Position numbers and translations under genes: made by a program
Source of the DNA: a virus
IMG/VR virus record: IMGVR_UViG_3300013307_000023
Coordinates: 1-53,780 of that record
Length of the DNA: 53,780 bases
Strand: one strand, 5' to 3'
The notes under the pieces: generated by a model
Told to the model about the DNA's origin: nothing
Database searches by the model: none
What the model saw: only the letters and a program-made list of their open reading frames with translations
In this document: positions 5,645 to 38,063 of the stretch, one piece after another
Layout: each line of letters starts with the position of its first letter
How positions within the stretch are numbered: position 1 is the stretch's first letter

Positions 5645-5649
5645 ACTAG

Positions 5650-5655: not shown

Positions 5656-5679
5656 CGCCTCTGACCTGGGGAAAACAAG

Positions 5680-5703
5680 AAACCCCCTCCGAAGAGGGGG
5701 TTT
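5680..5703 (-). terminator. Rho-independent terminator (minus-strand transcripts)
   Basis: AAACCCCCTC (5680-5689) pairs with GAGGGGGTTT (5694-5703) over 10 bp around CGAA. Read on the minus strand the stem is followed by TTTCTTGTTTT. It ends the SPFH transcription unit just after the stop at 5708. Confidence 0.85.
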
Positions 5704-5707
5704 CCCG

Positions 5708-7173: not shown

Positions 7174-7179
7174 AGTTGT

Positions 7180-7185
7180 GTTATA
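7180..7185 (-). promoter_or_regulatory. Leaderless -10 element TATAAC (minus strand)
   Basis: Read on the minus strand, TATAAC is followed by 6 bases and then the ATG at 7173. A -35 candidate TGGAAA (4/6) sits 17 bases upstream, inside the 3' end of the NadR-like gene. It would drive the membrane protein and SPFH genes. Confidence 0.6.
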
Positions 7186-8221: not shown

Positions 8222-8832
8222 TTGTTCTCCTTCTGAGCCTTGCTCAGGTCTTGGGCGTACAGGCGACCGTCCACGACGTTCACGCCTGCCTCATTGAGTT
8301 CAAAGGTTGTATCGTCATCGTTCTCCGGGTGAACCGATGCAGTGAAGTCTTTGATGACCTGAACCTCGAACCCTGCCTTTGCGAGGTCGATAGCGGTAGC
8401 CTTCACACAATAGTCAAAGGCAAGTCCGATGACACTGACGTTGGTAGCGCCCCACTCCTTAAGGGCCGCATCCAGGTACCATCCGAGGTCGTTCTCACCC
8501 TCGACTCCCGAGTAAGAGGCCCTGTACTGACCCTTGCGGAAGATTTGCGCACCCGCAGAAACGATGTTGAAATCTGCCGCGAATGCCGCCCCCTCCGACT
8601 CTGCCACACAGTGGACAGGCCAGGAGTCGATGTAGTCCGGGTTGTCGGAGAAGTGCGTTCCTGGGTCGATGTGCCAGTCCTTGGTGTATGCCACGGGGAA
8701 CTTGGCAAGCTCGAACGTCGGAATCACGAACTTTGCTGTGAGGTCGGCTACCGCCTGACCTCCCGTGACAGCAAGCGAGCCACCCTCACAGAAATCCTTC
8801 TGAATGTCAACAACTACAAGTGCCTGGGTCAT
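8218..8832 (-). CDS. pncA: Nicotinamidase (isochorismatase superfamily)
   Basis: 204 residues with all expected catalytic and metal residues: Asp9, Lys100 and Cys142 for the triad, and Asp52, His54, His60 with His74 for the metal site. It hydrolyses nicotinamide to nicotinate, feeding the host nicotinate branch of NAD salvage. Start overlaps the pnuC stop (ATGA) and its stop overlaps the nadR start (GTGA), so the three genes are tightly coupled. Confidence 0.9.
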   Translation of the reverse strand: MTQALVVVDIQKDFCEGGSLAVTGGQAVADLTAKFVIPTFELAKFPVAYTKDWHIDPGTHFSDNPDYIDSWPVHCVAESEGAAFAADFNIVSAGAQIFRKGQYRASYSGVEGENDLGWYLDAALKEWGATNVSVIGLAFDYCVKATAIDLAKAGFEVQVIKDFTASVHPENDDDTTFELNEAGVNVVDGRLYAQDLSKAQKENK

Positions 8833-9572
8833 CTTCCTGCCTTTCTGTTGCCCATCGGGTCATAGAACTTTGGCTCTGCGGGAATCTGTGCCTGCATGGA
8901 CTTGCGCCATGCGAGGTAGCCCCAGAGGTTTGCCACTCCAAAGATTACCTGCTGAACCGCCGCAAAGTAAAGTCCCGACTGGAAATACGTGATAGTTCCT
9001 ACGATGTTGACCAAAGTCCACACTGCCCAGGTTTCGATAACCTTGTTGTCCAACATGAACTGAGCGAGGATCGTCAGAACAAGAATCGCCGCATCCATGG
9101 GGGCGAACGAACCCTTGAGAAGGGTCACCGTCAGCACTGCACCGCCGTAGAACGCCGCTGTCACAGCGATGTAGGCGAGCCACCACCATCCCTTGATGTG
9201 GTGCACCGGACGGGTCTTGGAGTCCTTACCCCAACGGAAGTAGCCGTAGAAGAGCGAGAACGTCAGGTAGAAACTCAGCACTGCCGAAGCCAGAAGGTCG
9301 GACTGGAAGTAGAGAACGGCGTACAACGCGCTCGCTACTACGCCGAGAAGGTAGAACGCCCGACGCTGACGAATGCTCAGGAATGTGCAGGCGTAGTTGA
9401 TGCCTGCGGCTGATACTTCAAGCCAATTCGGTGGGCCACTGACCCATCCCACTGCGTACGCGAAGACATACGTCAGAGAAGTGATTCCCAGGGCGATGAG
9501 TGTCGCCTGAACGTAATCGTTTTTGAGGAGATTGGACCGGGTTGGCGCGGTGGGGATGTACGGGATGCTCAT
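8829..9572 (-). CDS. pnuC: PnuC-type nicotinamide riboside transporter
   Basis: 247 residues from an ATG at 9572 that follows a leaderless -10 box (TACAGT, 7 bases). Seven hydrophobic segments, the NWLEV motif after the second helix, the ASALYAVLYFQ region and a C-terminal LWGYLAWRK are characteristic of PnuC. These proteins import nicotinamide riboside by facilitated diffusion and rely on intracellular phosphorylation for trapping, which the NadR kinase two genes on can provide. Confidence 0.9.
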   Translation of the reverse strand: MSIPYIPTAPTRSNLLKNDYVQATLIALGITSLTYVFAYAVGWVSGPPNWLEVSAAGINYACTFLSIRQRRAFYLLGVVASALYAVLYFQSDLLASAVLSFYLTFSLFYGYFRWGKDSKTRPVHHIKGWWWLAYIAVTAAFYGGAVLTVTLLKGSFAPMDAAILVLTILAQFMLDNKVIETWAVWTLVNIVGTITYFQSGLYFAAVQQVIFGVANLWGYLAWRKSMQAQIPAEPKFYDPMGNRKAGR

Positions 9573-9579
9573 AGAACAT

Positions 9580-9608
9580 ACTGTACGCGCCGTTGGCGCA
9601 AAAAGCAA
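9580..9608 (-). promoter_or_regulatory. Leaderless promoter TTGCTT-17-TACAGT for the NAD cassette
   Basis: On the minus strand TTGCTT (9603-9608) and TACAGT (9580-9585) are 17 bases apart, and the pnuC ATG follows the -10 by 7 bases. No Shine-Dalgarno is present. This would drive pnuC, pncA and nadR as one unit. Confidence 0.6.
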
Positions 9609-9615
9609 GAAACTT

Positions 9616-9762
9616 TTAGAAGTCTCCGATTGCCTTGCGCTTGGCGTCCTGGCGAGTGCGAGCACGCTGAGTACGGCTGTCCTTGTGCGGTTCTGCCGCA
9701 GAAGAACGCCGCTTCTCTACCATTGCGCGGTAGAGGTCCGTGGGTTCGTGCTTCTTAGCCAT
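9616..9762 (-). CDS. Small basic protein (48 aa)
   Basis: A 49-codon frame between the clamp and pnuC genes. It starts MAKKHEPTDLY and is dominated by Arg, Lys and Ala, so is probably helical and nucleic-acid- or ribosome-associated. A TATTCT -10 box lies exactly 6 bases before its ATG, the leaderless spacing used elsewhere. Family not recognised. Confidence 0.6.
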   Translation of the reverse strand: MAKKHEPTDLYRAMVEKRRSSAAEPHKDSRTQRARTRQDAKRKAIGDF

Positions 9763-12082: not shown

Positions 12083-12455
12083 CCGATTGCACTTCCTGCA
12101 CCGAGTTTCCACGCTTTCTCACCTTCGCCCGGAAACCGTACTTTTCGAAAATCTCTGCCGCATCCTCCTTGGAAACGGTTCCACGCTCGAATCTGTATCC
12201 GCCACGGATACCTTCAGACTCGTTGTCCTTGATAGCGTCCTGCAAGCACAATTCCAGCACCGGGCACGTGGCGCAGAGATTCTTAGCTACGCCTTCAAGT
12301 GGGTCTGGCCGGTAATCATCCTTTTCCCAAGTCCCGTGGTCGATATTGTCCCAAGCAGTCTTCATTTCTGGCGCAACAGCGATTGTGTTTACACAAACTG
12401 CGTCATTCCGCCAGTCGTCATTGAACTTGGTCTTTGTCGGCTTACGGTGACTCAA
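12075..12455 (-). CDS. whiB: WhiB-family Fe-S transcriptional regulator
   Basis: 126 residues with the four iron-sulphur cysteines Cys21, Cys61, Cys64 and Cys70 (CxxCxxxxxC) and the GIRGGY turn (82-87), followed by a basic C-terminus for DNA contact. WhiB proteins are confined to actinobacteria and their phages, and act with the principal sigma factor. The start is an unusual TTG overlapping the previous stop (TTGA), and its 3' end overlaps the nuclease gene, so it is embedded in a repair operon. Confidence 0.92.
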   Translation of the reverse strand: MSHRKPTKTKFNDDWRNDAVCVNTIAVAPEMKTAWDNIDHGTWEKDDYRPDPLEGVAKNLCATCPVLELCLQDAIKDNESEGIRGGYRFERGTVSKEDAAEIFEKYGFRAKVRKRGNSVQEVQSDE

Positions 12456-13510
12456 GGCGTTACATCTTCCAGTAGTTGAATACTTGTGGCTTTCACAGGC
12501 TCTTCAATATCCATACGCCGTACGTGGTCGATAATGGAACCTGTCGAAGAAATGTCTAGTGTTGCTCCGGTGACTTCGGCTAGGAAAGAATCTAGGTCCA
12601 TCTTGACTTCCTTCTTCTCCTGAGCCTCTGCGAGCTTGAAAACTTCGCTTGCTGGCTTGTGTGGAATGTCTATAGGCTGGAAACCAAACTCCGGAGTCCA
12701 GAGAGCCACTTGAATCTTGCGAGCTAGGTTGTACTCATGCAGTGAACCTCGGGAGAGTGCGCCCATGTTGGCGAACTCCACACCATCTACGTCGAACTTG
12801 TAGTGAGGCTCATGAATGTGGCCGTAGTAGAGGTAACCGGTGTTCCCCATTGCGTCGGAAACTTCTTCCAAATCCAGAAGGTCAAATAGCACGTTGTCTG
12901 CCACAGTAGGTGGATAGATGGGAGCATGAGTCACCGCTAGGGAGTTGGTGACGTTGTATCGGTTCGCGTGGTCACGGATACTTGAAGCACGCTCTCTCCA
13001 GCCCTCGAAAGCTTCTTCGATAGTCCCCGGAGATAGCCAGCGCTGTTGCCACGGCACACCAAAGATGGGAAGGGTAGGGTGCCAACCATCTAGCTCCCGT
13101 AGCGCTCCTGTGGCGTACATGACGCCTAGCGGCTGGTTCTCTAGGCTCTCAAGCCTGTCACTCGTAATGTCGTGGTTCCCCGTGACCACAAGCGGGGGAC
13201 GCTGGTATAGCTGAGCAACTTTGGTGAGCTTACCCACCAAACGGTGGCTTGTTCGGGAAGGTTGCTTGTGGTTGAAAACGTCACCGGCCCAGACTACGGC
13301 TTCCGCCCTCACCGCTTTTTCTAGTTTTGCGACATAGGCGAGCATGTCTAGGATGTCGTCGCTGTACGTGTCGTAGCACGATGCAGGAGGACGGTCGCTC
13401 AGATGGATGTCACCTACGCAGATAACTCGTATGGATGAGTTCGTGATGACATCCGTTAGCTCTTGGATGGTCAGTCCTGGGTGCTGAGGAACATTGATGC
13501 TACCGGTCAC
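12452..13510 (-). CDS. SbcD/Mre11-like metallophosphoesterase (nuclease subunit)
   Basis: 352 residues. Metal motifs are VGDIHLS (Asp34, His36), WAGDVFNH, VTGNHD, THAPIY and YYGHIHEPH, in the order and spacing of SbcD/Mre11-like DNA nucleases. A C-terminal region of about 90 residues with basic and helical segments would serve as the capping or ATPase-binding part. An SbcC-like ATPase piece is encoded at 15479 on the other strand. The GTG start overlaps the previous stop. Confidence 0.82.
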   Translation of the reverse strand: MTGSINVPQHPGLTIQELTDVITNSSIRVICVGDIHLSDRPPASCYDTYSDDILDMLAYVAKLEKAVRAEAVVWAGDVFNHKQPSRTSHRLVGKLTKVAQLYQRPPLVVTGNHDITSDRLESLENQPLGVMYATGALRELDGWHPTLPIFGVPWQQRWLSPGTIEEAFEGWRERASSIRDHANRYNVTNSLAVTHAPIYPPTVADNVLFDLLDLEEVSDAMGNTGYLYYGHIHEPHYKFDVDGVEFANMGALSRGSLHEYNLARKIQVALWTPEFGFQPIDIPHKPASEVFKLAEAQEKKEVKMDLDSFLAEVTGATLDISSTGSIIDHVRRMDIEEPVKATSIQLLEDVTP

Positions 13511-22318: not shown

Positions 22319-24205
22319 ATGGCTAACCCACTATCAGCCTGGCTAAACGAGCCAGAACCCCAAAAGGGTAGCTCGCTGTCGGAAATTTTTGCTGAAGAGC
22401 CTGTTGATCTTCGAACATTTATTCGAGATAAGAGGTTCCTAGGTCAGACCAACGTTGAGCTTTCGGAAGAGCAGTCGAAGGCCATTCAAGTCATCGAACG
22501 AGTCTACTACCCAGAGCTATATCCTCAGATGGCAGAAGAATTTGACTTCGGCCACTACTGGGGTCAGGATGTCCCATCGGCAAACCTCATAACCCTCCAA
22601 TGGGGAAAGGGTTCAGGCAAGGACGCCATTTGCCGATGGGCTTCGCTTCGTGTGGCGTACCTTCTCCTATGTCTCAAGTCTCCGCAGTTGTACTTCGACA
22701 TGCCGGAAACTGACTCCATCCACCTACTGAACATCGCCGCCAACGCTCCTCAGGCTAACCGAGCATTCTTCAAGCCCATGACCACCGCCGTGAAGACGGG
22801 GTGGTTCAAGGGCAAGGCAGTCATCCGTCAGGGTGAAATCGAGTACGACAAGAACATTTTCGCTGTTTCCGGTCACTCTGACGCCGAAGGTCAGGAAGGT
22901 CTCAACATCATGCTTGGTGTTGCTGACGAGATTGACGCCTTCAAGGCCAAGGACGAAATGGTTGGAACCGGAAAGCGTATGCGTGAGGCTTCGACCTCCG
23001 CTGAGTCGATTCTTGACATGCTCAAGACCTCTGCTTCTACCAGATTCCCAAAGACATACAAGCGTGTAGCCATTTCGTATCCTCGCTACCTAGGCTCCAC
23101 GATCCAGCAGTTGACCGCTCAGGCGCGTGCCTCTAACGAGAAGTACGGCGAGAAGTCTATTCACTACGTATCTGGGCCATTCGCCACGTGGGAAATCAAC
23201 CCTCGTGTAAGCGGAAAGGAAGATTTTGCGGAGGACTACGAGGAAGACCCAATCGGGTCTGCCGCTAAGTACGAGTGCAAGCCTCACCGTGCTATCGACC
23301 CGTTCTTCAAGAACATGTCCATTTTCCGTGAGGCCGTGGATCAGGAAACTCAGCCAATAACCGTTGAGTACAAGGTTGCGGAGTACTACAGCAAGCACAC
23401 CCATCGCACTACCCGAGGATGGGAACCTGTATTCAGGTTCGCTCCGGATTTTCAGCCGATTCAGGGTGCCCGCTATGCCCTACACGGGGACCTAGCCCTA
23501 AAAGGTGACCGTGCTGGCGTAGCCATGTCCCATATCGAGAAGTGGGAAGAGTACACTGACACCGTTTTCGCTGAAGACGGCTCGCAGTATCACAAGACGC
23601 ATGTGCGCCCAACAATTCGAAATGACTTCGTGTTCGGATTTGAAGCAGACGCTACCGCCAGGGATACAGACGGCACTCCTATGCCACGTGAAATCCAAAT
23701 CCGCTGGGTACGAATGCTTGCGTACGAACTTATTAAGCGTGGGTTCTTCATAGGTTATTTCACGTTCGACTCTTTCCAGTCCGCTGACACTATACAAATC
23801 TTCACGACTGAAGGAATCGAGTCAGATAAGGTCTCTACTGACCGTGACCCATCGCTATGGTCATCCCTCAAGGACATTGCTTCTGAAGGTCGTTTGAAGT
23901 TTGCTTTCGACCAATTGCTGATGAATGAGCTTGAGGCTTTGTCGAAACTAGATAATGGAAAGATTGACCATCCACCGAATGGTTCTAAGGACTTGGCGGA
24001 TGCTTTCTGTTGCTCTGTGGCGGGTGCCCTTGTTACAGGAGGCGAAGAAGACCCCGAGGGCGCGATAGTAGAACACGGCGGTCCTTATTACACACCAGGT
24101 AGGGCATTTGACCCTCTTGAAGGACAGCAAGAGACTTTTGAAACTCTGGGCGACCCTTTCGGCTTGCCGATAGGATTCCCCACGGGAGGCGGATATGGCT
24201 GGTAA
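22319..24205 (+). CDS. terL: Terminase large subunit
   Basis: 628 residues. ATPase half: LQWGKGSGKDA (about 95-105) is the Walker A and GVADEIDAF (about 200-208) the Walker B with catalytic Glu. Nuclease half: HGDLALKGDRAG near 387 gives the first RNase H-like Asp, TFDSFQSAD near 482 the second, and PPNGSKDLADAF near 555 the last. It cuts concatemeric DNA and drives packaging through the portal. Overlaps the portal gene by 11 bases. Confidence 0.93.
   Translation: MANPLSAWLNEPEPQKGSSLSEIFAEEPVDLRTFIRDKRFLGQTNVELSEEQSKAIQVIERVYYPELYPQMAEEFDFGHYWGQDVPSANLITLQWGKGSGKDAICRWASLRVAYLLLCLKSPQLYFDMPETDSIHLLNIAANAPQANRAFFKPMTTAVKTGWFKGKAVIRQGEIEYDKNIFAVSGHSDAEGQEGLNIMLGVADEIDAFKAKDEMVGTGKRMREASTSAESILDMLKTSASTRFPKTYKRVAISYPRYLGSTIQQLTAQARASNEKYGEKSIHYVSGPFATWEINPRVSGKEDFAEDYEEDPIGSAAKYECKPHRAIDPFFKNMSIFREAVDQETQPITVEYKVAEYYSKHTHRTTRGWEPVFRFAPDFQPIQGARYALHGDLALKGDRAGVAMSHIEKWEEYTDTVFAEDGSQYHKTHVRPTIRNDFVFGFEADATARDTDGTPMPREIQIRWVRMLAYELIKRGFFIGYFTFDSFQSADTIQIFTTEGIESDKVSTDRDPSLWSSLKDIASEGRLKFAFDQLLMNELEALSKLDNGKIDHPPNGSKDLADAFCCSVAGALVTGGEEDPEGAIVEHGGPYYTPGRAFDPLEGQQETFETLGDPFGLPIGFPTGGGYGW
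24063..24070 (+). promoter_or_regulatory. CGATAGTA occurrence inside terL (possibly chance)
   Basis: Exact octamer 125 bases upstream of the portal ATG, within coding sequence for an Ala-Ile-Val-Glu stretch. Could promote portal transcription, but unlike most other copies it is not in a gene junction. Confidence 0.25.
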
Positions 24206-26108
24206 GGACAAAAAGGAGATAAAGGACGAGAATCCTGATATCTCTGCACCACCGCCAGAGAGCACCTGGGGTGTTGAACTAGGTGTTGAGCAGAACCTTC
24301 CCTTTGCCGTACCCTACAACGATGGATTGAGCGCTAAGGCCCGCGCTGATAAGGAACTCCGCGAGATTCTTCGTGAAGAGGGTGAAGAGCTTGGCCCTTC
24401 GGTCTCTCAGCTTGTGGCCATGCGTCGTCTTGACGGACAGGCTCGCGCTCTCTACCGTCTACTGACGCTTCCTATTCGTGCCGCACTCTCTAAGAGCACG
24501 TTCGTACCCGCTGACGGCGGGGAGGCTGAGGCTGAATTCATTGACCTTCAGTTCAACCTCCCACCGGCTTCAGGTGGTATGTCGGTGACTTTCCACCGCT
24601 TCATGGCTCAGCTTCTCCAAGCTCTCTTCGACGGATTTTCACCATTCGAACAAGTGTTCGATTACGCTACCTACGGACCACTCAAGGGTAAGTACGTTCT
24701 TCGCAAGCTCGCGTACCGTCAGCCGAACACCATCAGTGTCCTCGAAGACGATGATGGCCGATTCGATGGCTTCCGTCAGCGTGCTGTGAAGAACGGCGAA
24801 ATCATTGATGTTCACATTCCTCGTGAGAACTCGTTCTACTTTGCCGCGCAGGAAGAAGAGCGCAAGTACTACGGTGTAAGTTTCTTCCAGAGTGCCTTCT
24901 ATCACTACGACAAGAAGGTGAAGATGTATTACATCGCTCACCTTGCGGCTCAGCGTGCCGCCGTAGGAACAAGAATTGGTACCTACCCAGCCAACGCCAC
25001 AGACACTCAGCGCCGCATCCTGGCTCAGAACCTATCCAACCTAGCCATCGCTCAGTGGATGATGGTTCCAGAGGGTGTCAAGGTGGAAATGCTCAAGGAG
25101 GGCGGCGGTTTCGCGTTCCTTGACTACATCAACCACCACAACAACCAGATGTCCAAGTCCATCCTTGCGAACTTCTTCGACAAGGACTCCGGTGGCGCAT
25201 CCGACCAGGCTCTAGTGCAGTTCGGCAACCCTGGCGACAACATGTTCTTCCTGATGCTTCAAGCCATCATGGATGAAATCGCCAACGCCATTAACCACTA
25301 CATCATTCCACGCCTCATCGACTGGAACTTCGAGGGCGGTAAGTACCCTCAGTTCAAGTGGGCCGAACTCACTGAAGAGCAGAAAATGCTCATCAATGAC
25401 ACGTTCAAGGTGCTCGCCACCGCCGACACTGTTTCCCCAGAGTTCATCCGTGAGCTTGAGAAGAAGCAGGCCGACGAAATGGGTCTTGAGATTGACTGGG
25501 AGAAAGTTGAAGAGCGCGAGGCCGCAGACAAGGTTTCTCAGAACGCCATCAATGGTCTGGACGAGAACGGCATGCCTCTGCCTAAGGATGCCATGGGCAA
25601 CCCCATCATGCCAGGGCAGAACAACCCAGACGCCGCGCTTCAGGCTTTCGAGGCTCAGGCAACAGGTGGGACCGCTGGCGCACCAAACGCCGCACCGGCA
25701 GGACCACCACAGCCAGGACAGCAGGTTCCCGGCAAGAAGGTCAAGCTCTCCGGAGAAGAAGAATCTGAAGAGCACCTACTGAACCTTGCCGCAGACCTAC
25801 TCGAATTGGCTCGTCCAACCTCCGGGTCTCAGCGCACCGTTCGTACGAAGGAAGGTTCTGACCGCTTCCACGTAGCTATTGGACAGAAGATTCCTAACAG
25901 TGCGGGCAAGGACGAACAGGGCGGCAAGCGCTCTGTCACCGTAGAACGCCTTATGAACCTCAAGGCTCAGTATGTGGAATTCATGCAGGCCGGTAACAGG
26001 GACGAAGCTCAGAAGGCTTTGAAAGAGCTAAAGCAGGCGGTGTACGACTACACCGGTTCATGGAAGCCCTCAATCTTCATGGCGACTATGAACAAGCTTG
26101 GGGGGTGA
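24195..26108 (+). CDS. Portal protein
   Basis: 637 residues, between TerL and MuF. The order of elements fits a DUF935/Mu gp29-like portal: LRREI-type helix start, an LDGQARALYRLLTLPIRAA stretch near 80, FSPFEQVFDY (about 148-157), a long wing, FGNPGDNMFF near 343 and a stem with INHYIIPRLIDWNF near 364. Portals are dodecameric rings at the capsid vertex. The C-terminal about 140 residues add a Pro/Ala linker and a domain with RTVRTKEG, a motif also found in the giant protein. Confidence 0.85.
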   Translation: MAGKDKKEIKDENPDISAPPPESTWGVELGVEQNLPFAVPYNDGLSAKARADKELREILREEGEELGPSVSQLVAMRRLDGQARALYRLLTLPIRAALSKSTFVPADGGEAEAEFIDLQFNLPPASGGMSVTFHRFMAQLLQALFDGFSPFEQVFDYATYGPLKGKYVLRKLAYRQPNTISVLEDDDGRFDGFRQRAVKNGEIIDVHIPRENSFYFAAQEEERKYYGVSFFQSAFYHYDKKVKMYYIAHLAAQRAAVGTRIGTYPANATDTQRRILAQNLSNLAIAQWMMVPEGVKVEMLKEGGGFAFLDYINHHNNQMSKSILANFFDKDSGGASDQALVQFGNPGDNMFFLMLQAIMDEIANAINHYIIPRLIDWNFEGGKYPQFKWAELTEEQKMLINDTFKVLATADTVSPEFIRELEKKQADEMGLEIDWEKVEEREAADKVSQNAINGLDENGMPLPKDAMGNPIMPGQNNPDAALQAFEAQATGGTAGAPNAAPAGPPQPGQQVPGKKVKLSGEEESEEHLLNLAADLLELARPTSGSQRTVRTKEGSDRFHVAIGQKIPNSAGKDEQGGKRSVTVERLMNLKAQYVEFMQAGNRDEAQKALKELKQAVYDYTGSWKPSIFMATMNKLGG

Positions 26109-26111
26109 CCT

Positions 26112-26891
26112 GTGGCCTCCTTCAAGGAGCAAATGTCGCTTCACCAGGCCTCTAGGATTGCCACAGCCGCCCTAGAGGCCTCTTCCCGTGCGGAAATACT
26201 TCACCTGTTCGATGACTGGGATTCCGGCAGAGAGTCCGGTAACACCATTCATTGGCGGCTACAGGCGGTCGTTAGAGAGGCTTATCGCACTAGCGCGGCC
26301 ATAGCACGCGGGGTGGCCCAGCAGTCCTCAGATTTGCCCGACTGGCAGTCCCACGAGGTATTCAACACCGACTATCTTCAGGCGCTCCTCGTGGATGTGC
26401 GTAAGAACGTGCGTGACTACAAGGCAGGTAATCTCTCAAGGGATTCTGCCGTGCTCCGTATCCAACACTCTGCGGGAGTAGCCGCACAGCGTGGATACAC
26501 CGACCAGACGATTGCCTCCTACACAGAACTACAAGACTTCGGATTTGAGCTTCGTAAGTACTGGGTAGCCAACTTCGTCAACAACGACCCTTGCCCAGCC
26601 TGCCGCAGTCTCCACGGCTCCTGGGTCGGGTTGCATGAAGATTTTAAGGCTGAGACCAGTACCGGTATCTACCGAGACCTCATCGGCCCTCCTCGCCACC
26701 CACGTTGCCAGTGCCGACTCTATGTGTTCATCGTTTCTCTTGAGAATGCATTCGAGCACCCCAACTTCGAGAACCCTCAGGACTCTCCTCAGATGATGTC
26801 TGTCGCGGATGTCCAGAAGATGCCTGAGTCTCTGTTCAAGTCCATCCGGAACAGCCTACGAGCAGTTCTCCGATTCCTGCGAGGCTCATGA
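26112..26891 (+). CDS. MuF-like minor head protein
   Basis: 259 residues, GTG start. The C-terminal SPP1 gp7/MuF signature is clear: YWVANFVNNDPCPACRSLHG (about 155-174) and PPRHPRCQCRLYVF (about 195-208). Helical N-terminus. MuF proteins sit near the portal and are often ejected or packaged. Here the usual toxin-like extension is absent, but a giant multidomain protein is encoded two genes downstream. Confidence 0.85.
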   Translation: MASFKEQMSLHQASRIATAALEASSRAEILHLFDDWDSGRESGNTIHWRLQAVVREAYRTSAAIARGVAQQSSDLPDWQSHEVFNTDYLQALLVDVRKNVRDYKAGNLSRDSAVLRIQHSAGVAAQRGYTDQTIASYTELQDFGFELRKYWVANFVNNDPCPACRSLHGSWVGLHEDFKAETSTGIYRDLIGPPRHPRCQCRLYVFIVSLENAFEHPNFENPQDSPQMMSVADVQKMPESLFKSIRNSLRAVLRFLRGS

Positions 26892-27181: not shown

Positions 27182-30100
27182 GTGTCTGATGCCATGTCTG
27201 AACTAGAGTTCATCGCTCTAGCCGCTGGCCTACACGAGCGTCGAGTTCAGACGCCGGAAGGTGCCAAGTTCTACGGGCAACCCATCGGTACCATCATTAC
27301 GCCAGACCTCATCAAGGCGAAGAAGCTTGAGCACGCTCTCAAGGGCATCAAGCCACCTAAGGGAGGCCTGTCTCCAAAGGTAAAGACTGGTAGCAAGAAG
27401 GGCAAGTCAGCAAACGTCCCTAACGTTCCTGACGCTTCACATTCCGGAGAGGGCAGTCTTCCGGCACACGCCGCTTCTCAAGGCAAGCTACCGGCGAAGC
27501 CTTCTACTATTTCCGGCCCCAACGCTTTCAAGGTGGGAGTGGCAGACTACTCCGCTCCTGAGGGTTCTAAGCTCATCCGTCCCAAGAACACGCCAGATAT
27601 GGCGTACATTCTGACGCCAGACGGAGAGATTCACGCCTTTACCGCAGACGGTGAAGTTGACGTGCCGGATTACCTGCACGATGTTCTCAAGCAGAAGTTC
27701 TCCAACCTTCAGGCCAACGACCCTCTCTACACCGTGGAGAAGTTCGACGCTAAGAAGTCTCAGCAGTTGGCGGACCTTCCATCTGGAGCTAAGCTCACCA
27801 AGGCCGGTGAAGTAGCCTTCCAGAAGCAGGAGGATGGCTCCTGGCTCAACGAAACCCTGGGTGTCACCCTCAGCGACCAAGACCTTCAGAGTGCGTTCGA
27901 CAATGGAGCATTCGAGGTTCAGTCAGCACAGGCTACTAATCACGATTTCTCGAAAATGACTGCGGAGGAAATTTCCGCCGCTCTTGACACCTACCCTGTC
28001 GGCCACGAGCTTGGCCTAGGGCCTACAGCCTCATTGAAGAAGCAGGCTGACGGCACATGGAAGTCCTCTGTCACCGGCAAGAATCTTGAGCCGGATGCTC
28101 TAGGCTCCCTAGCCAGCGGCACAAATATTCTTCATGACACTCCACCTGAGCGTCACAAGGGCGACCAGACTGAGGACCCGCTGACGAAGGCGAGCGCCGA
28201 AGCTCCTGCCACCCCTGAAATTCCCGCCGCCGAAGACCCCAAGCAAAACTTGGTAACTTCCCAGGATGTCTGGGATGCGAAGCCTGGCGATGTCCTATAC
28301 CATGACCAGATGGGCGCTCTCACACAGCACGACGATGGCAAGTGGTACACCGATGGCGACAAGGCGAACTACATGGGTTCCATCGTCGCAGGTTCCGCAG
28401 ACGGCGGCTACGTTTCCAAGCTTCCTTGGAACGAGGATCAGAAGAAGAAGCACGAAGATTTTGTCAACACTCCTCAGGTAACCACACCGGTAGAAAAGCC
28501 TCAGAAGGCAAAGCCTGACACTAAGCCTCTTCCCAAGGGGAGCAAGCCTGCCCCTGACCTGACTCCGGTCACCAGTCTTGACAACTTCAAGCCGGGGGAT
28601 GAGGTCGTTGTCAACGACTTCTATCTTGGACAGGACCCATACACACTTGTCAAGCAAGATAACGGGGATTGGGCAGAGAAGGGCAAGGAAAACGGTCCAA
28701 CCTTCTCCGACGCCGACCTTCACACGGATGTCACTGATGGTGTTGTCTTCATGCCCAAGAAGACTCCTGAGCCAGCCAAGACTCCGGATGCTCCTACCGC
28801 TCCTGACCACAACCCTAATGACTTCCAGACTGTTGACCTTGCCGATGGCGTAGACGGTCTGAACTCCGCACCCGTTGGCGCGTACATCCGTGTGGCCGAC
28901 GCCAACAACGCCCACTTCATGGACTACATGAAGCAGAAGGATGGTCAGTGGCACTCCGTGGGAGCTAAGTCTGGCCACTACACAGACTTCACATTCCCGT
29001 CAGAAGAGTTCCAAGCTGAGTTCGATGACCACCAGGTGAATGTGTGGAATCTGAAGCCTAAGGCACCAGAATCCACTAAGCCTGACGTAGCCCCTGCCGC
29101 TCTTCCTACCCAGGACTTCAACGAGGTTCACGGTATGAAGAAGGGTGATGTTCAGGACGCTATCAACAGCCTTGAGGGACACTCTGGATTCCAGGTCAAG
29201 TACGGTCTGAAGACCCTTCCTGACAACCACCCGCTGAAGAACTCTGACACGCTTGCCAAGGTTCAGGCAGAGGCTTCCGACGCCTACCCAGACCTCCCAC
29301 CAAAGAAGGCTCTGATTAAGCACCTGAAGGCTTCTATCGGTGCCGAGGATGGCGCTGTAGCAGAGGCTCAGAAGGCCGCTGACACGACCGGAAACAAGAT
29401 TCTCATTGGTTCTTCGGAGTCCAAGCTCACCCAGACGGGTGACACGGGTGGCTCCTTCACCAAGACCGAGATTCAGGATGCCATCAATATCCTTGAAAAC
29501 TTCGATGGCAAGATTTTCAAGGCTGAGTTGAACAAGAAGGGCAACCCACTGGGTAAGCTCTCGCCAAACGACATCGTTGGATTCAACAAGGACAAGACGG
29601 TAACCAAGCAGAAGTTCATCGACCTTCTGAAGCAGAAGCTTACTGACAACCCGGACAAGCCTAAGGACGCCACTCCGGATACCAACGCTCCTGAGCTTCC
29701 TATGAACGCTCACCACAACCCTGTTGACACGCCAACTCCCGGCAAGGTGGTTGCGGCTGACGAGAACATGACGGCTCTTCAGAACGCGCCTGTGGGAACG
29801 CTCATTGAGCGCCCAACTCAGTTCTCCGGTAGCGATTCTCTCATCACCTATCAGAAGGTGGCAGACAACAAGTGGGTCAAGACCCACGAGCCTAATGCAC
29901 CGGGATACAAGAACGATTCGCTCATGTTCTTCAATTCGGCCATGAATGGCAAGCTCCTGTGGGCTGAAAAACCGATCCTTCCTGAATCAGGTGGCCAGTT
30001 TGATTCTGTGGAACAGTTGACCGAGACCCCGGTAGGTCACTACGTTCAATGGACTAACGGTTCAAAGACTGAGACATACAAGAAACTTGAAAACGGCAAG

Positions 30101-33100
30101 TTTAAGGCCCTTGGTTCCGGCACAGAGTTCGATCAACAACTTCTCGACCAGTATCTCACCACGGACTTCGGTACTAAATTCAAGATTTCGTACGTAGGCG
30201 ACAGCCTGCCCGAAAGCGGACCAGCCATCCCTCCTAAGACGGACATGCCTCAGATCGGGGATAACGTCACCAGCACCGAGCACTTGAAGAAGCTTCCTAA
30301 CGGGTCCGTGTTGCTTGAAACCTTCGGAGAAGGTAAGACTTATTGGACTAAGACATCTTCCGGGGAGTGGCACAACGACGCTATCTCATCCCCATGGTCC
30401 AGTGAGAAGTTTGGTAGCTATGTAACAAATTCCGACAAGTTCACACTGCACACCACCCCAACCGACATCGAGGCTCCTTCCGCCCACCTTTTCAAGGTTG
30501 GCGAAGCTGTATCCAAGCACGACATGCAGGACATGCCCAACGGCACCCAGCTTATGTGGGCTGACAACCCTTGGTACAAGGACAGCGAGGGCGACTGGTG
30601 GGGAATTTCTAGTACTGAGCCTGTTGCCAAGGAACAGCTTCCAAACGGTACTCCGTTCACCGTAGCTAAGATCGGGTCTTACAAAAACGGAGACAGCATT
30701 TACCACTGGAAGGCTTTGAACGACCTTCCAGAGGGTTCCATCGTCCAGTACTCGAAGGATGCCACGCTCTTCTACAAGAAGAATGCTGACGGTACTTGGA
30801 GCGAGGGTAATGATATCGGTTACGCGAGCGAGCAGAAGAACGTGCCGTCTGACTTCGCGAATGTCTTCGACAACGGCGGCAAGGGTTTCTACGTCAAGCA
30901 GGTTGGCAACGACCCATGGGCACCAGCCTCCGTGCCTGACAGCATTGCTGACCCAGAACTGGTCAAGACGCCTGCCCTTTACACCAAGGACATGATCGAC
31001 GCTGAACCTATCGGAACAGTGTTCGGTATCGGTAGCGTAGACTTCCCCGAGTGGACTGTCACTTACGTCAAGGTAGGGACTGATAAGTTCTACGTTGAGG
31101 GCAACCATGATTTCTGGGTCGGCAAAGACCTTCCGGCTCTCAACGACCCAAGCGCGTATTCTGTGAAGAAACTGCAAGACGCCAATCCGGACTTCGGAAA
31201 AAAGGTGTCTGCCGGTATGCTCGCAGGTATGAAAGCAGGCTCCGTCGCGGAACTCAATGACAAGTTCTATACAAAGAACGAGGGTGGACAGTGGACCACT
31301 CTCCACGGAGATAAGCTTCACAGTGATGCTTTGACCGGTGCGAGCCTCATCTACGAGGTAGATGCTCCTGTACATAATCTCAAGCAAACCGACCCGCCGA
31401 AAGCTGACAGTGTGCAGGTTCAGCTTCCGCCTGTTCAAATCAAGTCTGAAGAGCATTTCGCTTCCCTTCCGGTAAACAGCTTCATCCAGAGTCCCGACTC
31501 CTGGTACCAGAAGCAAGAGAACGGTGTGTGGTTTGCGTTCAGCAAGGACGGCAACAACACATGGACCGTAAGTGGCTCCCACCTTTGGGGTGTACTCAGC
31601 ACGGACCCTAACGATTCTTTCGATATTCCTGTTTTCGATAACCCATACGGCTACAAGCCGGGTAAGTACGGCAAGGTCAACGGCAAGACATGGCTGTTCA
31701 TCAACGCTGACGGTACCGGTGTGTACCAGGGATTCAAGGGCGTAGTTACTCCTCTCAACGCTGAGGCCGTAAAGAAGAAGTTCGATGAGGGGTTCAACTC
31801 CTACGTCACAGACAAGGTTGACGCACCTAAGGTAGGTACAGCCGAGGCGCTGAAGACGAAGGGTGCCACAGCCAAGAAGGTTGGGGATATTTCCGACCTT
31901 CCAGACGGCAAGTACTACTTCGGCAACCCGAACTCCGCGAAGGCTCAAGTCTTCGAGGTAACCGGTGACAAGGTTCTTCACACCAAGCCACTGAGCGAGT
32001 TGGGCGACCAGAAGTTGGGCAAGGTTGTAGAGGGAGACTTCCCCGACCTGGCTCCTACTGGTACCGAGGTTGAATCCTCCTACTTCGGAAAGACTCTTGT
32101 CAAGAAGGAAGACGGTACCTGGGTAACCAAGGGTTACCCAGACGGTTCGGATCAGTCGTCCTACCTTCAAGGTTGGTACAAGTCAAAGTTCAAGGTTACA
32201 AACCTTGGGCTTGCAGAGCCGGTAGAACTCAAGAAGTCCTCCCTCAAGACCAAGTTCTTGACGGGTAAGCTTCTCGACTCCACGGGCACGTCTGTTGTGC
32301 CTAAGAACTACACCGGTAACGTTATGTGGTTCGGTGTTGAGACAAACGCTCAGACACTTCTTGCGCTCAAGAACGATCTTGAGAACAAGCAAGATATCAG
32401 CCCCGGAACTCTGATGAACAGTCACGGCCTCAAGAAGATTGATGCCGCACTGTTCAAGCAGAAGCTCACGGAGTCTCTGACGGACTACAACAACGACACC
32501 ATCCGCAAGTACGCCTCTGAGCATATCGCCGCGCTTCTGGATACTGTTGACACGTCTGTACCTACGTCGGACACATCTGCGCTCTTCCAGACGGACGAGT
32601 TGGGCTACACCGTAAAGCCTGTTGATCTTGCGGCATTCTCTATTCCGGACTACTACGGTACGACCGTTGGCGAGGCTACGGCCAAGGTCAAGGAAATCGC
32701 CAACATGTTCGGTGATGGAACTGAAATCGGTCAGCTTCCAACCACCATGGACAAGTCGGACAAGATCAACTGGATGACTGCCGTTTACCAGGGCAATTTC
32801 TCCAAGGCTTACACAATCGAATTCAACGCCGCGGCAACTTCTGGAAAATCGCTTCCTGCCGGATACAAGCACCCAGGCTACCCAGACAATACGGCCACTC
32901 ACCAGGTGCAGTGGGGCGCTGTCGTCAAGGGAGAAATCCCCGCAGGCTCTAAGGTCGAGGGAGATTGGTCTACCCTCTCCCCAAACGATTGGTCTATTGA
33001 CGAGGTAAACAACTACCTCATCAGTGCTCAGATGCAGAACCCAACCTACCTGTCGCTCGCTGAGCGCCGTAAGTGGGTCACGTACCACAAGCACGGCTCC

Positions 33101-36100
33101 GAGTACAAGGATGTCGTAGACAAGCTGTCTGCCACCGCTCTGAAGCGCAAGAACGACGGTCAGCTTCCGCTCTCCGAGGAAATCTCGTGGGTAGATGACA
33201 TCATTCCAGCCAAGTCGTACGACAAGCTCTTTGAGGGTACCGACTACCCTCTGACGTGGGGCGAATACGGCAATAAGACAGCCGGTCTTGACTGGTACAA
33301 GGACAATATTGATGACCCCGGCAAGGCGGAAATTCTTAAGCAGGGTATTCAGGCATGGATCGATGACAACGGATACACCGGTTACACGCCCGAAAGTCTT
33401 GATTCTCACCTTCTGAGCTATGCGGCTCCATACGCCGTCCAGAAGTACTTCGAGAAGGCAGAGTACGACTATCAGCAGGAACTCCTCAAGCCTGTCTTCA
33501 CAAAGAAGAGCGGCCAGACAAAGGGTTCTCACCCAGGAGCGTTCTACACTGACCAGTTCGGCAAGAATTACTACGCCAAGTGGTGGTACGAGGAAGACCA
33601 GCTTTCCAACTACCGTCTTGAGATTGAGCACGCCGGTAACAAGATCGGTCGCGCGTTCGGCTTCAAGACCGCAGACAGCCGTCTTATCCAGCAGGACGGT
33701 CACTACACGCAGATGCAGGATGTCGTGGAAGGTGTGGGAGACCTCACCAACTTCGACTTCTCCACCATCACGCCTAAGATGATAGCTGACATCGAGGGCG
33801 AGCACATGCTCGACTGGATGCTTCAGAACGACGACACGAAGGCTGACAACGCCATTGTGACGGCTGACGGGCATGTAGTTGGTATCGACAAGGCTCGCTC
33901 CTTCAAGGATTACGGCGCTGTCTCGTGGGACCACGACGCTCCTGACGGTAACCTCTCCATCTACACGCGCCTGTACTCCGCTGTGAAGAGCGGTAAGGTC
34001 TCCAAGGAGACCATGGACGCCGCGTACGCGATGATTCGCAAGCGCTCGCTTCAGATGCAGAAGTCTGATAACAAGAAATTCTTCGACCTCATTGAAGCGG
34101 GTTCTGTCAACCGTCCCGGCTGGACTATCGGCTACAAGATTGACGGCAAGCCGGTCTCCCAGGACGTGGAAGGCCTCAAGGCCGCATTCGCGGATCAGAA
34201 GGCTAACCTTGCCGACAAGGTTGAGGCCGAGTGGACAAAGCTCTACAAGGACGCCGGTCTTGGTGACCTTCCCGAGATTGTCACGCCTAAGCTGGGCGAG
34301 GGTATCCACTCCGGACTGCACAGCCCTGACCTTCACGAGCAGGTTCACACCACCAAGTCTTCCGGTGTCAGCGCCATCGTCGGTGGTCAGCACGTCATCG
34401 GTGGAACGGTGCACATGTGGACTGAAGAAGAGAAGAGCGGCGATGTCCACGCCATGGGTGAAATGTACCTGGCTCCTAAGGCTCAGCAGTCTGCCCTTGA
34501 ATTCTGGACTGAGCACGCGGGTGCTGTAAAGCACCAGCACGCTCCTGTAACAACGGACTTCGCTCCGTACGACCAGTACTGGGGACCGCTTCTCGCGGGC
34601 GCTAAGACAGTCAACCAGCACGCCGTGGACAAGCAGTACAACGCCGGTACGATCCAGAACTTGAACGATTACAAGTCCAAGCTCGAAGCTCACCTTGAGG
34701 AGTGGAGTCCCAACCTCATTTCAAACAAAAAGTCTAACGGACTTGATGTTTACGAGTTCAAGGACGGCTACAAGGTGCCGATGGAGCACCTTGCACAGTA
34801 CAAGCTCGCTCTGGACTACTACCAGCCTAAGTTCCAGAAGGTAGTAGACGCGCACGCCGCAGAAGGCAAGGTTGAGCCTAATCTTGACCAGTACGAGATT
34901 ATTCAGCTTCACCCTCAGAAGGAGATTCTGACCTCTCCTGACGGCTCGCAGTCCATCACTATGATGGCCAACAACAAGATTTTGTGGGCTAAGGCTTCCG
35001 GTGTTACTCACGAGTCAATGTCGGAAACCGAGATTGCTGACCTCAAGAAGAGCGGCTGGACATCCAGTCTTCAGAAGCCTGAAGATGACACCGCCCCCAA
35101 GGCTCCATCTACCCCTCTGGGTGCGGTATTCCAGCAGAACGCTTCTACGTACGAGCGTGCGGCTAACCACGACCCTAAGACGAACGTCAAGGTTCTCACG
35201 GGTAGCCCCGTGGATTCCGGTACCAATGGCTCCGAATTCCAGGCAACTCTTCCTACCGGGGAGGTTATCTACTGGCGTGACAGTGACAACACCAACACCG
35301 CCCGTGGCCAGCAGGGTAAGTTGACGTTCAAGGTCCCCAACCAGAAGGACCCAACGGAACTGGGCGCGTCCATGCAACGTATCCAGGAGTTCCTTGACGC
35401 CATGGGACTTGACACCCACGATGCTGACCACGGTGACGCCGAGTTGACGTACTGGCGTGAAATGTACGGTGTTCTTGAAAACCGTAACCATAACTCCGAA
35501 GGCGGAAAGAAGTTCGCCAACGTTGCCGCTCTCATGAACAAGAAGCGCAAGGAAATCGGCGGCAAGGACAATCAGTTCCTTGAGAACCTTTCCGAGAAGA
35601 TGACGGTTCAGGAGCAGAACGAGTGGTGGCGTGAGATTTGGAGCACTGAGTTCAAGGACCAGGTTGACAAGCTGATTGCAGAAGAGGCCTACCTTCCCAA
35701 GTTCGACCACCAGAACATTCAGGACCCAACGCAGAACACCGGTAAGCCTTATTGGGAGCGCTTCGACACTACTTTCGAAGATTTGTTCGCAAAGCAGGGC
35801 TTCTTCCTCGCGCACTCTTCGGGTAACAACCCAGGAGACCTCAACGAGATTGAGAACGGTGGACTTATCTCCGGTGAGGAGCGTATTCGCCAGCTTGGAA
35901 AGATTTACACGGGTGGTGGCTACGGTTCAAGCTCGCCTCTGTCTGACCAGAACAACGGTTCTTCGCACCAGATTTACACGCGCCTGGTAGGGGACACCGA
36001 CACTCAGCAGTTGCAGTATTACAACTACATCCTCAACCCACGTCTTCTCCTGCGTACGCGCACGTACGTGCTGACAGGTGACCAGTACGGAAAGCTGGAC

Positions 36101-36379
36101 GCCCGTAAGCAAGACACACAGTCTGACCTTAGTGACCTCATCAGCAATCACATCAACGCGGGCGGCGAGACTATGACCCCCAACATGGCTTCCATCCTTG
36201 ACGGTGTGGAACTCATGATCTTCGACCAGGGCGAAGAGAAGAAGCGTGAAGCTCAGATTCAGAAGCTCAAGGCTATGGGTCTCGAAGAAATCCGCGGCCT
36301 TCCGATTGAGGATCGTCTGGTAATGCGCCAGAACTTCAAGGCCGCTATCCAGAAGGTGAAGGAAGCATGGAACAAGTAG
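27182..36379 (+). CDS. Giant 3065-residue multidomain virion-associated protein
   Basis: GTG start with AGGGAG upstream. Residues 1-60 include TPEGAKFYGQPIG, like the portal tail. From about 115 to 1675 run some 17 divergent beta modules of roughly 50-75 residues with the pattern hydrophobic-xx-Pro-x-Gly ... Tyr-x-Lys ... Gly-x-Trp, joined by Pro-rich linkers; two helical IQDAIN repeats are inserted near 660-830. A kinase-fold-like region follows (about 2130-2250): DWMLQNDDTKADNAIV matches a catalytic D..N loop and VVGIDKARSF the metal Asp. The end (about 2855-3040) has LAHSSGNN, ENGGLISGEERI and GGETMTPN, suggesting an ADP-ribosyltransferase-like domain (DarT/Tpt1 style), unproven. Probably packaged with the head and delivered to the host. 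Confidence 0.8.
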   Translation: MSDAMSELEFIALAAGLHERRVQTPEGAKFYGQPIGTIITPDLIKAKKLEHALKGIKPPKGGLSPKVKTGSKKGKSANVPNVPDASHSGEGSLPAHAASQGKLPAKPSTISGPNAFKVGVADYSAPEGSKLIRPKNTPDMAYILTPDGEIHAFTADGEVDVPDYLHDVLKQKFSNLQANDPLYTVEKFDAKKSQQLADLPSGAKLTKAGEVAFQKQEDGSWLNETLGVTLSDQDLQSAFDNGAFEVQSAQATNHDFSKMTAEEISAALDTYPVGHELGLGPTASLKKQADGTWKSSVTGKNLEPDALGSLASGTNILHDTPPERHKGDQTEDPLTKASAEAPATPEIPAAEDPKQNLVTSQDVWDAKPGDVLYHDQMGALTQHDDGKWYTDGDKANYMGSIVAGSADGGYVSKLPWNEDQKKKHEDFVNTPQVTTPVEKPQKAKPDTKPLPKGSKPAPDLTPVTSLDNFKPGDEVVVNDFYLGQDPYTLVKQDNGDWAEKGKENGPTFSDADLHTDVTDGVVFMPKKTPEPAKTPDAPTAPDHNPNDFQTVDLADGVDGLNSAPVGAYIRVADANNAHFMDYMKQKDGQWHSVGAKSGHYTDFTFPSEEFQAEFDDHQVNVWNLKPKAPESTKPDVAPAALPTQDFNEVHGMKKGDVQDAINSLEGHSGFQVKYGLKTLPDNHPLKNSDTLAKVQAEASDAYPDLPPKKALIKHLKASIGAEDGAVAEAQKAADTTGNKILIGSSESKLTQTGDTGGSFTKTEIQDAINILENFDGKIFKAELNKKGNPLGKLSPNDIVGFNKDKTVTKQKFIDLLKQKLTDNPDKPKDATPDTNAPELPMNAHHNPVDTPTPGKVVAADENMTALQNAPVGTLIERPTQFSGSDSLITYQKVADNKWVKTHEPNAPGYKNDSLMFFNSAMNGKLLWAEKPILPESGGQFDSVEQLTETPVGHYVQWTNGSKTETYKKLENGKFKALGSGTEFDQQLLDQYLTTDFGTKFKISYVGDSLPESGPAIPPKTDMPQIGDNVTSTEHLKKLPNGSVLLETFGEGKTYWTKTSSGEWHNDAISSPWSSEKFGSYVTNSDKFTLHTTPTDIEAPSAHLFKVGEAVSKHDMQDMPNGTQLMWADNPWYKDSEGDWWGISSTEPVAKEQLPNGTPFTVAKIGSYKNGDSIYHWKALNDLPEGSIVQYSKDATLFYKKNADGTWSEGNDIGYASEQKNVPSDFANVFDNGGKGFYVKQVGNDPWAPASVPDSIADPELVKTPALYTKDMIDAEPIGTVFGIGSVDFPEWTVTYVKVGTDKFYVEGNHDFWVGKDLPALNDPSAYSVKKLQDANPDFGKKVSAGMLAGMKAGSVAELNDKFYTKNEGGQWTTLHGDKLHSDALTGASLIYEVDAPVHNLKQTDPPKADSVQVQLPPVQIKSEEHFASLPVNSFIQSPDSWYQKQENGVWFAFSKDGNNTWTVSGSHLWGVLSTDPNDSFDIPVFDNPYGYKPGKYGKVNGKTWLFINADGTGVYQGFKGVVTPLNAEAVKKKFDEGFNSYVTDKVDAPKVGTAEALKTKGATAKKVGDISDLPDGKYYFGNPNSAKAQVFEVTGDKVLHTKPLSELGDQKLGKVVEGDFPDLAPTGTEVESSYFGKTLVKKEDGTWVTKGYPDGSDQSSYLQGWYKSKFKVTNLGLAEPVELKKSSLKTKFLTGKLLDSTGTSVVPKNYTGNVMWFGVETNAQTLLALKNDLENKQDISPGTLMNSHGLKKIDAALFKQKLTESLTDYNNDTIRKYASEHIAALLDTVDTSVPTSDTSALFQTDELGYTVKPVDLAAFSIPDYYGTTVGEATAKVKEIANMFGDGTEIGQLPTTMDKSDKINWMTAVYQGNFSKAYTIEFNAAATSGKSLPAGYKHPGYPDNTATHQVQWGAVVKGEIPAGSKVEGDWSTLSPNDWSIDEVNNYLISAQMQNPTYLSLAERRKWVTYHKHGSEYKDVVDKLSATALKRKNDGQLPLSEEISWVDDIIPAKSYDKLFEGTDYPLTWGEYGNKTAGLDWYKDNIDDPGKAEILKQGIQAWIDDNGYTGYTPESLDSHLLSYAAPYAVQKYFEKAEYDYQQELLKPVFTKKSGQTKGSHPGAFYTDQFGKNYYAKWWYEEDQLSNYRLEIEHAGNKIGRAFGFKTADSRLIQQDGHYTQMQDVVEGVGDLTNFDFSTITPKMIADIEGEHMLDWMLQNDDTKADNAIVTADGHVVGIDKARSFKDYGAVSWDHDAPDGNLSIYTRLYSAVKSGKVSKETMDAAYAMIRKRSLQMQKSDNKKFFDLIEAGSVNRPGWTIGYKIDGKPVSQDVEGLKAAFADQKANLADKVEAEWTKLYKDAGLGDLPEIVTPKLGEGIHSGLHSPDLHEQVHTTKSSGVSAIVGGQHVIGGTVHMWTEEEKSGDVHAMGEMYLAPKAQQSALEFWTEHAGAVKHQHAPVTTDFAPYDQYWGPLLAGAKTVNQHAVDKQYNAGTIQNLNDYKSKLEAHLEEWSPNLISNKKSNGLDVYEFKDGYKVPMEHLAQYKLALDYYQPKFQKVVDAHAAEGKVEPNLDQYEIIQLHPQKEILTSPDGSQSITMMANNKILWAKASGVTHESMSETEIADLKKSGWTSSLQKPEDDTAPKAPSTPLGAVFQQNASTYERAANHDPKTNVKVLTGSPVDSGTNGSEFQATLPTGEVIYWRDSDNTNTARGQQGKLTFKVPNQKDPTELGASMQRIQEFLDAMGLDTHDADHGDAELTYWREMYGVLENRNHNSEGGKKFANVAALMNKKRKEIGGKDNQFLENLSEKMTVQEQNEWWREIWSTEFKDQVDKLIAEEAYLPKFDHQNIQDPTQNTGKPYWERFDTTFEDLFAKQGFFLAHSSGNNPGDLNEIENGGLISGEERIRQLGKIYTGGGYGSSSPLSDQNNGSSHQIYTRLVGDTDTQQLQYYNYILNPRLLLRTRTYVLTGDQYGKLDARKQDTQSDLSDLISNHINAGGETMTPNMASILDGVELMIFDQGEEKKREAQIQKLKAMGLEEIRGLPIEDRLVMRQNFKAAIQKVKEAWNK

Positions 36380-36986: not shown

Positions 36987-38063
36987 ATGGATGACCGCGT
37001 ATATGTACCGGGCGAAGACGATGGCTTCGTAGAACTTTCGCGCACTGCCACAGGGCGCAAGTTCCGCAAGCACATTCTCTCCACTGGCCCACTGTACTAC
37101 CCCGGCGTCAAGGGCGGCAAGGTTGATATCGATGAGGCCTTCCTGACGAAGCTCTCTGAGAACTTCAACAAGAAGGTTTGCCCCATCGTTCAGGTGCCTG
37201 TAGTTGGAGACAACAACGAGCACACTGAAGACCCTTTCCGCAACGTTGGCGAGGTAGTCGGAGTTGAAGTTGAAAACGGCAAGGCTTATGCCGTTATTGA
37301 CGCACGGGACGAAGCCGCCGCCAACAAGATTGGTAAGACTCTTCTTGGCGCTTCGGCAATGCTCTCTCTGGATTACACAGACACCAAGACCGGCCAGAAG
37401 GCAGGCCCCGCACTTCTCCACGTGGCCATCACGAATCGTCCTCATCTGACTGATTTGGAAGATTTTGAAGAAGTGTTGCTATCGCACGATAGTAGCAGTA
37501 AGGCAGTCGTACTATCTGCCGCCCCAAACACCACTAAGGAAACGAAGATGACTCTGGACGAACTAATTGCCCAGGCTCGTGACGAGCACGGCATTGACAT
37601 CCCTGAGCTTCAGCGTGTGGCGGCTGATGCTGGCTCCCTCGCAAAGCTTTCTGCCGACATCAAGAGCGCCCTATCTGACGGCGGTGTTCTCAAGCTCTCC
37701 GCTGAGTCTGAGGCATCGACAGAAGACCTAGTTGTTGCTGTCACCAACATCGTTGAGACCAACGTTGCTCTTTCCGCCAAGGTTGACGCCCTGGTTGAGG
37801 AGTCTGCTAAGGCTAAGGCTGAGGCCCGCGTTGACGAGCTTGTTGCCGGTGGCTTCATCACCCCAGCCAAGCGTGACGCCAACCTGAAGCTTCTCCTATC
37901 GAACCCTGAGACCTTTGAGGAGCTTCTTCCAGAGAAGCCACTCGTAGCTCTCTCCGCTGAGAAGGGTGACGAGTTCAAGGACGAGTCCCACGACGCATCG
38001 GTTCAGAGCGAGATTGCACGCCTCACGGCTGACGCCATCGCTGAAGGCATCATCCGCGCCTAA
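36987..38063 (+). CDS. Capsid maturation protease fused to scaffold
   Basis: 358 residues. The N-terminal part (about 1-165) resembles Mu gpI-like prohead proteases, with VCPIVQVPVVGDNNEHTEDP, GASAMLSLDY (candidate catalytic Ser) and HVAITNRPHL. Residues about 188-358 are helical and charged, rich in Ala, Lys, Glu: a scaffold. It would cleave scaffold and capsid during head maturation. An internal start at 37548 could make free scaffold. Followed by decoration and major capsid genes, the usual order. Confidence 0.82.
   Translation: MDDRVYVPGEDDGFVELSRTATGRKFRKHILSTGPLYYPGVKGGKVDIDEAFLTKLSENFNKKVCPIVQVPVVGDNNEHTEDPFRNVGEVVGVEVENGKAYAVIDARDEAAANKIGKTLLGASAMLSLDYTDTKTGQKAGPALLHVAITNRPHLTDLEDFEEVLLSHDSSSKAVVLSAAPNTTKETKMTLDELIAQARDEHGIDIPELQRVAADAGSLAKLSADIKSALSDGGVLKLSAESEASTEDLVVAVTNIVETNVALSAKVDALVEESAKAKAEARVDELVAGGFITPAKRDANLKLLLSNPETFEELLPEKPLVALSAEKGDEFKDESHDASVQSEIARLTADAIAEGIIRA
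37487..37494 (+). promoter_or_regulatory. Late motif CGATAGTA, copy 3 (inside the protease gene)
   Basis: Located within coding sequence at the protease-scaffold boundary, 53 bases upstream of an internal ATG at 37548 that has AAGGA 7 bases before it. The 45-53 base gap resembles copies at 41024 and 49155, supporting a nested scaffold transcript. Confidence 0.5.
37548..38063 (+). CDS. Candidate nested scaffold protein (internal start)
   Basis: In-frame ATG of the protease-scaffold gene, preceded by AAGGA (37536-37540) at ideal spacing and by an internal late motif. The product would be 171 residues, MTLDELIAQARDEHG onward, entirely the helical scaffold. A nested scaffold made in excess over the protease fusion is established in lambda (Nu3 within C). 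Here it is inferred from signals only. Confidence 0.5.
   Translation: MTLDELIAQARDEHGIDIPELQRVAADAGSLAKLSADIKSALSDGGVLKLSAESEASTEDLVVAVTNIVETNVALSAKVDALVEESAKAKAEARVDELVAGGFITPAKRDANLKLLLSNPETFEELLPEKPLVALSAEKGDEFKDESHDASVQSEIARLTADAIAEGIIRA

Follow-up and report, generated by a model that had tools for sequence, protein, structure and literature searches.

Little is known about how phages of Gram-positive hosts select the proteins packed along with their DNA. The locus described here encodes a protein of 3065 residues among the genes for the phage head. We consider it probable that this protein is a head-loaded, ejected effector in which a constant carrier half is joined to an exchangeable enzyme half.

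Genomic setting of the giant protein

The window, a 53,780-base IMG/VR record analyzed over its whole length, contains a gene (27182-36379, + strand) that is open over 3065 codons from a GTG start, with AGGGAG a few bases 5' of the start. The modular ORF of this size described in an earlier note, made from the DNA alone, proved to be an intact reading frame with relatives in five uncultivated phages (L006, L007, L014, L028, and L029), which were found by scans of viral contigs. The relatives comprise 2853 aa (full) in L007, 3090 aa in L014, 3348 aa in L028, and 2806 aa in L029, while L006 covers the C-terminal half of the giant protein; against close relatives, dN/dS was ~0.1-0.3, with dS partly saturated. 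Two ORFs of 594 and 836 aa that run antisense to the giant gene (30386-34693, - strand) had no support as genes. Pfam and NCBIfam gave no match inside the giant protein, and PHROGs gave one weak, unnamed match.

The giant gene is preceded by genes for TerL, a Mu-type portal protein (24195-26108, +; PF06074, 1e-39), for which the nearest cultured relative is gp13 of Microbacterium phage Magritte at 57% identity, and a MuF-like protein that has its own gene (26112-26891, +; PF04233, 7e-4, weak), so the placement after portal and MuF genes that had been proposed holds. Downstream are a Mu-I-like head protease/scaffold (36987-38063, +), identified by family search and found by motif scan to contain FVELS and LVALS, and a capsid gene. 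In L029, the ORF just before the MuF and giant genes (2-1276) contains a Zeta_toxin domain (PF06414, 7e-22) and is a candidate for another effector in the head cluster.

Head-packaged, polyvalent phage effectors have been proposed in general by Iyer and colleagues (PMC5512222). Like these and the MuF-fused effectors (PMC5512222, PMC9503650), which are predicted to be packaged and injected, the giant protein has multiple domains including an enzyme and is coded among head genes. It differs from them in that MuF is unfused in the window and recruitment is apparently by a short tag common to the portal; in addition, the polyvalent kinases of that paper lack a C-terminal subdomain, whereas the window kinase has a PI3/4-kinase-like fold.

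A tag shared by the giant protein and the portal

Our chief new observation is a tag, RxVRTPEGAxxYGxPIG, near the N-terminus of the giant protein (aa 18-43, 27233-27310, +; HERRVQTPEGAKFYGQPIGTIITPDL), which recurs in the C-terminus of the portal protein in the window (25827-25904, +; RTVRTKEGSDRFHVAIGQKIP, with LLELA before it), L007, and L014. A tblastn search with the tag sequence and its consensus retrieved 33 phage records, nearly all from phages of Gordonia, Brevibacterium, and Microbacterium, plus a Microcystis phage, and when complete records were searched with a profile, each positive genome had between one and three strong copies. The search by alignment took in 18 whole records, and placement was counted in the 11 annotated genomes, where 19 of the 20 strong matches fell within the portal-to-major-capsid cluster. 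With VanLee left out, the chance of such clustering under uniform placement is ~10^-15, a figure that counts related phages as independent and uses approximate ends for a few intervals. Carriers of the tag include the ADP-ribosyltransferases (ARTs) Forza gp80 and Sixama gp75, the capsid proteases of DalanDe (gp27) and the Microcystis phage, portals of the giant-protein phages, giant unknown proteins, and also small proteins, one of which, Magritte gp14, is the tagged C-terminal extension of the portal as a separate gene of 109 aa (L026, 10531-10857). Orf14 of Gordonia phage GMA6 is likewise tagged. The tag was not named in the literature that we searched.

The sole exception among the 20 strong matches is VanLee gp127 (L035, 4956-6161; E 2e-8), which together with gp130 (~7334-7408; 7e-5) lies outside any visible head cluster; one of these two carriers is annotated as an acetyltransferase. 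In two further records (L025, 11992-14907; L034, 5576-8605) the tag is internal, near aa 470-480, and a degenerate copy stands at the N-terminus, which gives the look of a fusion between two tagged proteins. A second motif, phi-phi-[EA]-L-[SA], which we defined post hoc, precedes many tags (FIALA in the giant protein, 27209-27223, +, just 5' of the tag) and recurs in the protease/scaffold, reaching five copies versus 0.12 expected in L028; the other window proteins that we tested lacked it.

These placements suggest that the tag would recruit the giant protein to the procapsid interior, probably via the scaffold/protease, and they strengthen the proposal in the earlier note, drawn from gene order, that a candidate injected effector is encoded in the head cluster. 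That head-cluster proteins share a short N-terminal signal recalls capsid targeting in T4, in which the prohead protease removes N-terminal peptides from Alt and the internal proteins (PMC9958956). The likeness lies in an N-terminal signal on cargo of the head pathway; in the window, unlike in T4, the portal carries the tag too. More broadly, RxVRTPEGAxxYGxPIG may be a portable capsid-loading signal in many Actinobacteria phages and the Microcystis phage, serving portal, capsid protease, and injected effectors, with enzyme halves exchanged behind one carrier, a reading that we advance tentatively and on which we lean slightly toward doubt. If true, a short tag that flags cargo would make injected effectors findable from sequence alone and bring packaging within reach of tests in cultured phages, for example Magritte or Cantare.

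The portal copy could also signal a purely structural role for the tag. The giant protein would then be an internal head protein whose tag binds scaffold or portal and whose array organizes the procapsid core, with a kinase fold that has no role in the host, as might be expected from the sharing of the tag with the portal and, in other phages, the capsid protease, and from the position of the giant gene between those for MuF and the protease. We regard this as improbable given the low dN/dS of the gene, the different C-terminal half of the Magritte protein, and the invariance of the catalytic residues described below.

The N-terminal half and its exchangeable partner

Beyond the tag, the head-loaded effector that we favor begins with an N-terminal domain (aa 100-190, 27479-27751, +), followed by an array of beta modules that is interrupted by a pair of helical repeats. 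Using an iterated HMM, we located the modules in a first part (aa 188-639, 27743-29098, +), a second part that is poorly conserved between relatives (aa 855-1485, 29744-31636, +), and one isolated copy (aa 1613-1688, 32018-32245, +). The array is therefore real, as had been claimed, but the count of ~17 modules was too high: 13 copies had i-E < 0.01 and one more stood at 0.02, all within residues 188-1688. When the HMM was trained without the window copies, nine modules still scored above 10 bits, versus none in 50 shuffles. The helical repeats (aa 640-830, 29099-29671, +), likewise predicted beforehand, contain VQDAIN near residue 657 and IQDAIN at 764 and are conserved in every relative that covers them. 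Among the giants, segment identities showed the N-terminus, the helical pair, and the C-terminal half to be conserved, with the variable parts of the beta array at 15-32% identity.

A counterpart from a cultured phage is gp17 (1991 aa) of Magritte, the nearest cultured relative of the window phage by portal. This protein occupies the same gene position and matches the giant protein in the tag, the N-terminal domain (E 1.8e-11), the modules (4e-5), and the helical pair (1.9e-5). Unlike the window protein, it has a GNAT-like stretch (0.0012; 19.6 bits against a Pfam cut-off of 20.7) in place of the kinase and C-terminal region. The C-terminal half is thus exchanged in Magritte.

The tag, the N-terminal domain, the ~14 beta modules, and the helical repeats could together form a flexible, beads-on-a-string carrier, in which the small size of the modules would allow the long chain through the tail for ejection into the host along with the phage DNA. 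Phage N4 packages and ejects an RNA polymerase of ~3,500 residues with a beads-on-a-string architecture (PMC12633501). That protein is similarly large and multidomain, and its packaging and ejection provide a precedent for what we infer for the window protein, along with kinase activity and a substrate; we found no sequence relation between the two, and N4 is a podovirus whose payload is a polymerase. In the window protein, the payload would be the C-terminal half: an active kinase of the PI3/4-kinase-like type, which would phosphorylate a target in the host at an early stage of infection, and after it a conserved, enzyme-like region that is possibly an ART.

A predicted kinase domain

Modeled with AlphaFold2, residues 1600-2402 (pLDDT 78) displayed a kinase N-lobe and catalytic elements, with pLDDT mostly 80-90 across residues 2104-2352 (33491-34237, +), which we assign to a PI3/4-kinase-like domain. 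A Foldseek search of this region, suggested in the earlier note, returned 305 matches with E <= 0.001, with PI3K, VPS34, and RIO kinases at the top, and VIA ranked PI4KIIalpha (4hnd) first, with a Z-score of 15.3 and 217 residues aligned at 3.4 Å, followed by CtkA with a Z-score of 14.7 and actin-fragmin kinase and CotH at 12. The beta3 Lys, the catalytic Asp, and the metal-binding Asn and Asp are all present, and these residues (K2133, D2218, N2223, and D2236) were invariant in all six giants, down to ~38% domain identity. The motifs NDDTKADN and IDKARSF, from which a kinase fold had been suspected, occur in this domain as described; NDDTKADN and GIDKARSF follow the order of the catalytic residues in PI4KIIalpha. 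Fold and catalytic-residue order are shared with PI4KIIalpha, Helicobacter pylori CtkA, CotH, and actin-fragmin kinases, whereas identity to them is 10-16%.

The predicted kinase fold of residues 2104-2352 is thus strongly supported by the structural matches and the invariant catalytic residues. We claim no named kinase family, because the matches to PF00454 and HipA_C were all below the Pfam cut-off (in L008, L021, and L028) and none occurred in the window copy; a PDB sequence search with the kinase alignment yielded chance matches only. A PI4-kinase-like phage cargo raises the question of whether its substrate is a host protein or a lipid. Phosphatidylinositol is present in actinobacterial membranes.

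By tblastn, residues 2104-2353 matched the middle of Mycobacterium abscessus prophage proteins (BK061312 and others) at 24% identity (7e-11). These are annotated as minor capsid-ART fusions, their own domains being VG15/MuF and PF03496, and the homologous kinase domain, in which the metal-binding Asn is replaced by Gln, sits between MuF and ART. They differ from the window protein in length (~1170-1190 aa), in the lack of a beta array, and in their C-terminal ART (PF03496), which has no match to the window C-terminus. A profile search found no tag in the M. abscessus prophage or in L021, where one ORF (7155-9485) after a tail-like gene contains the kinase domain twice in tandem; because the kinase occurs in these proteins without a tag, it does not depend on one. 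A divergent kinase-like set occurs in a Clostridia MAG (L030, genome G006), where the kinase profile matched 11 times; the ORFs concerned are ~700-1200 aa long, and two of them start with a signal-peptide-like stretch.

The fusion of MuF, kinase, and ART in these prophages, like the known temperate phages with MuF-toxin fusions (PMC5576092), would fit a MuF-type polymorphic toxin acting between bacteria. For the giant protein this seems very unlikely, given that MuF is here on a separate gene and not on the same polypeptide, that a search of bacterial (GTDB) genomes yielded no relative of the C-terminal region, and that no immunity gene was identified.

A kinase encoded within a late structural cluster might alternatively serve assembly inside the cell that makes the particles, for instance by acting on portal, MuF, or scaffold, and not be injected. 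Forza gp78 and Sixama gp73, which adjoin portal genes and have a kinase-like stretch, would be in keeping with such a role, but their kinase matches are weak (<=10.3 bits, with a shuffled Forza gp78 control reaching 1.5 bits at most), a carrier of ~2000 residues is rarely needed for assembly, and Magritte manages without a kinase. We find this alternative slightly less credible than a structural role for the giant protein.

The C-terminal region

In the injected effector that we prefer, the kinase is followed by a conserved region (aa 2360-3065, 34259-36376, +) for which no known fold was found. Its last 200 residues (aa 2866-3065, 35777-36376, +) share 37-72% identity among the giants, with E2899, D2922, H2929, Y2932, R2934, and E2996 invariant, and these polar residues look enzyme-like. 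Searches of GTDB genomes and phage records yielded no relative of the region.

The HSSGNN and GGLIS motifs of this last domain, present as the earlier note had reported, had been taken there as signs of an ART of the DarT/Tpt1 type, in which case the payload would be a kinase plus an ART. This assignment was not confirmed. No ART family, PF14487 and PF01885 included, was matched in the giant protein by Pfam, the DarT and PTS_2-RNA profiles had no match within the window record, a PDB sequence search with the C-terminal alignment gave chance matches only, and hhalign against phage ARTs and Escherichia coli KptA gave under 1%. The structural model was poor (pLDDT 24-79), and neither the Foldseek comparison that had been proposed, run against PDB and BFVD, nor VIA returned anything credible: the best BFVD match, named as a mono-ADP-ribosyltransferase, had a probability of 0.14 and a TM-score of 0.07, and an NAD-bound effector appeared in row 48 of the VIA results with a Z-score of 4.5. 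H2878 is Ser in L029; the proposed NAD-binding His is therefore not invariant. We nevertheless keep an ART as a possibility, if a doubtful one, because of the conserved polar residues, the conserved pattern LxHSS...GGL..GEERxR...IYTR...E, and the co-occurrence of kinase and ART in related loci, namely the M. abscessus prophages and Forza, in which an ART lies two genes downstream of the kinase-like stretch.

NAD salvage and other genes of the window

A possible connection between an ART in the giant protein and an NAD cassette had also been raised. The cassette is real: the window carries NAD salvage genes (7181-9665, -) for a PnuC-type NMN transporter (PF04973), an isochorismatase-type hydrolase, and a NadR-like AAA_28 protein with a nucleotidyltransferase-like N-terminus; nothing was found that links it to the giant protein. 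Nearby, one leftward operon (4232-6900, -, and 12452-13510, -) encodes a pair of calcineurin-like phosphoesterases together with a 5'-nucleotidase (NT5C) and a Band 7/SPFH protein.
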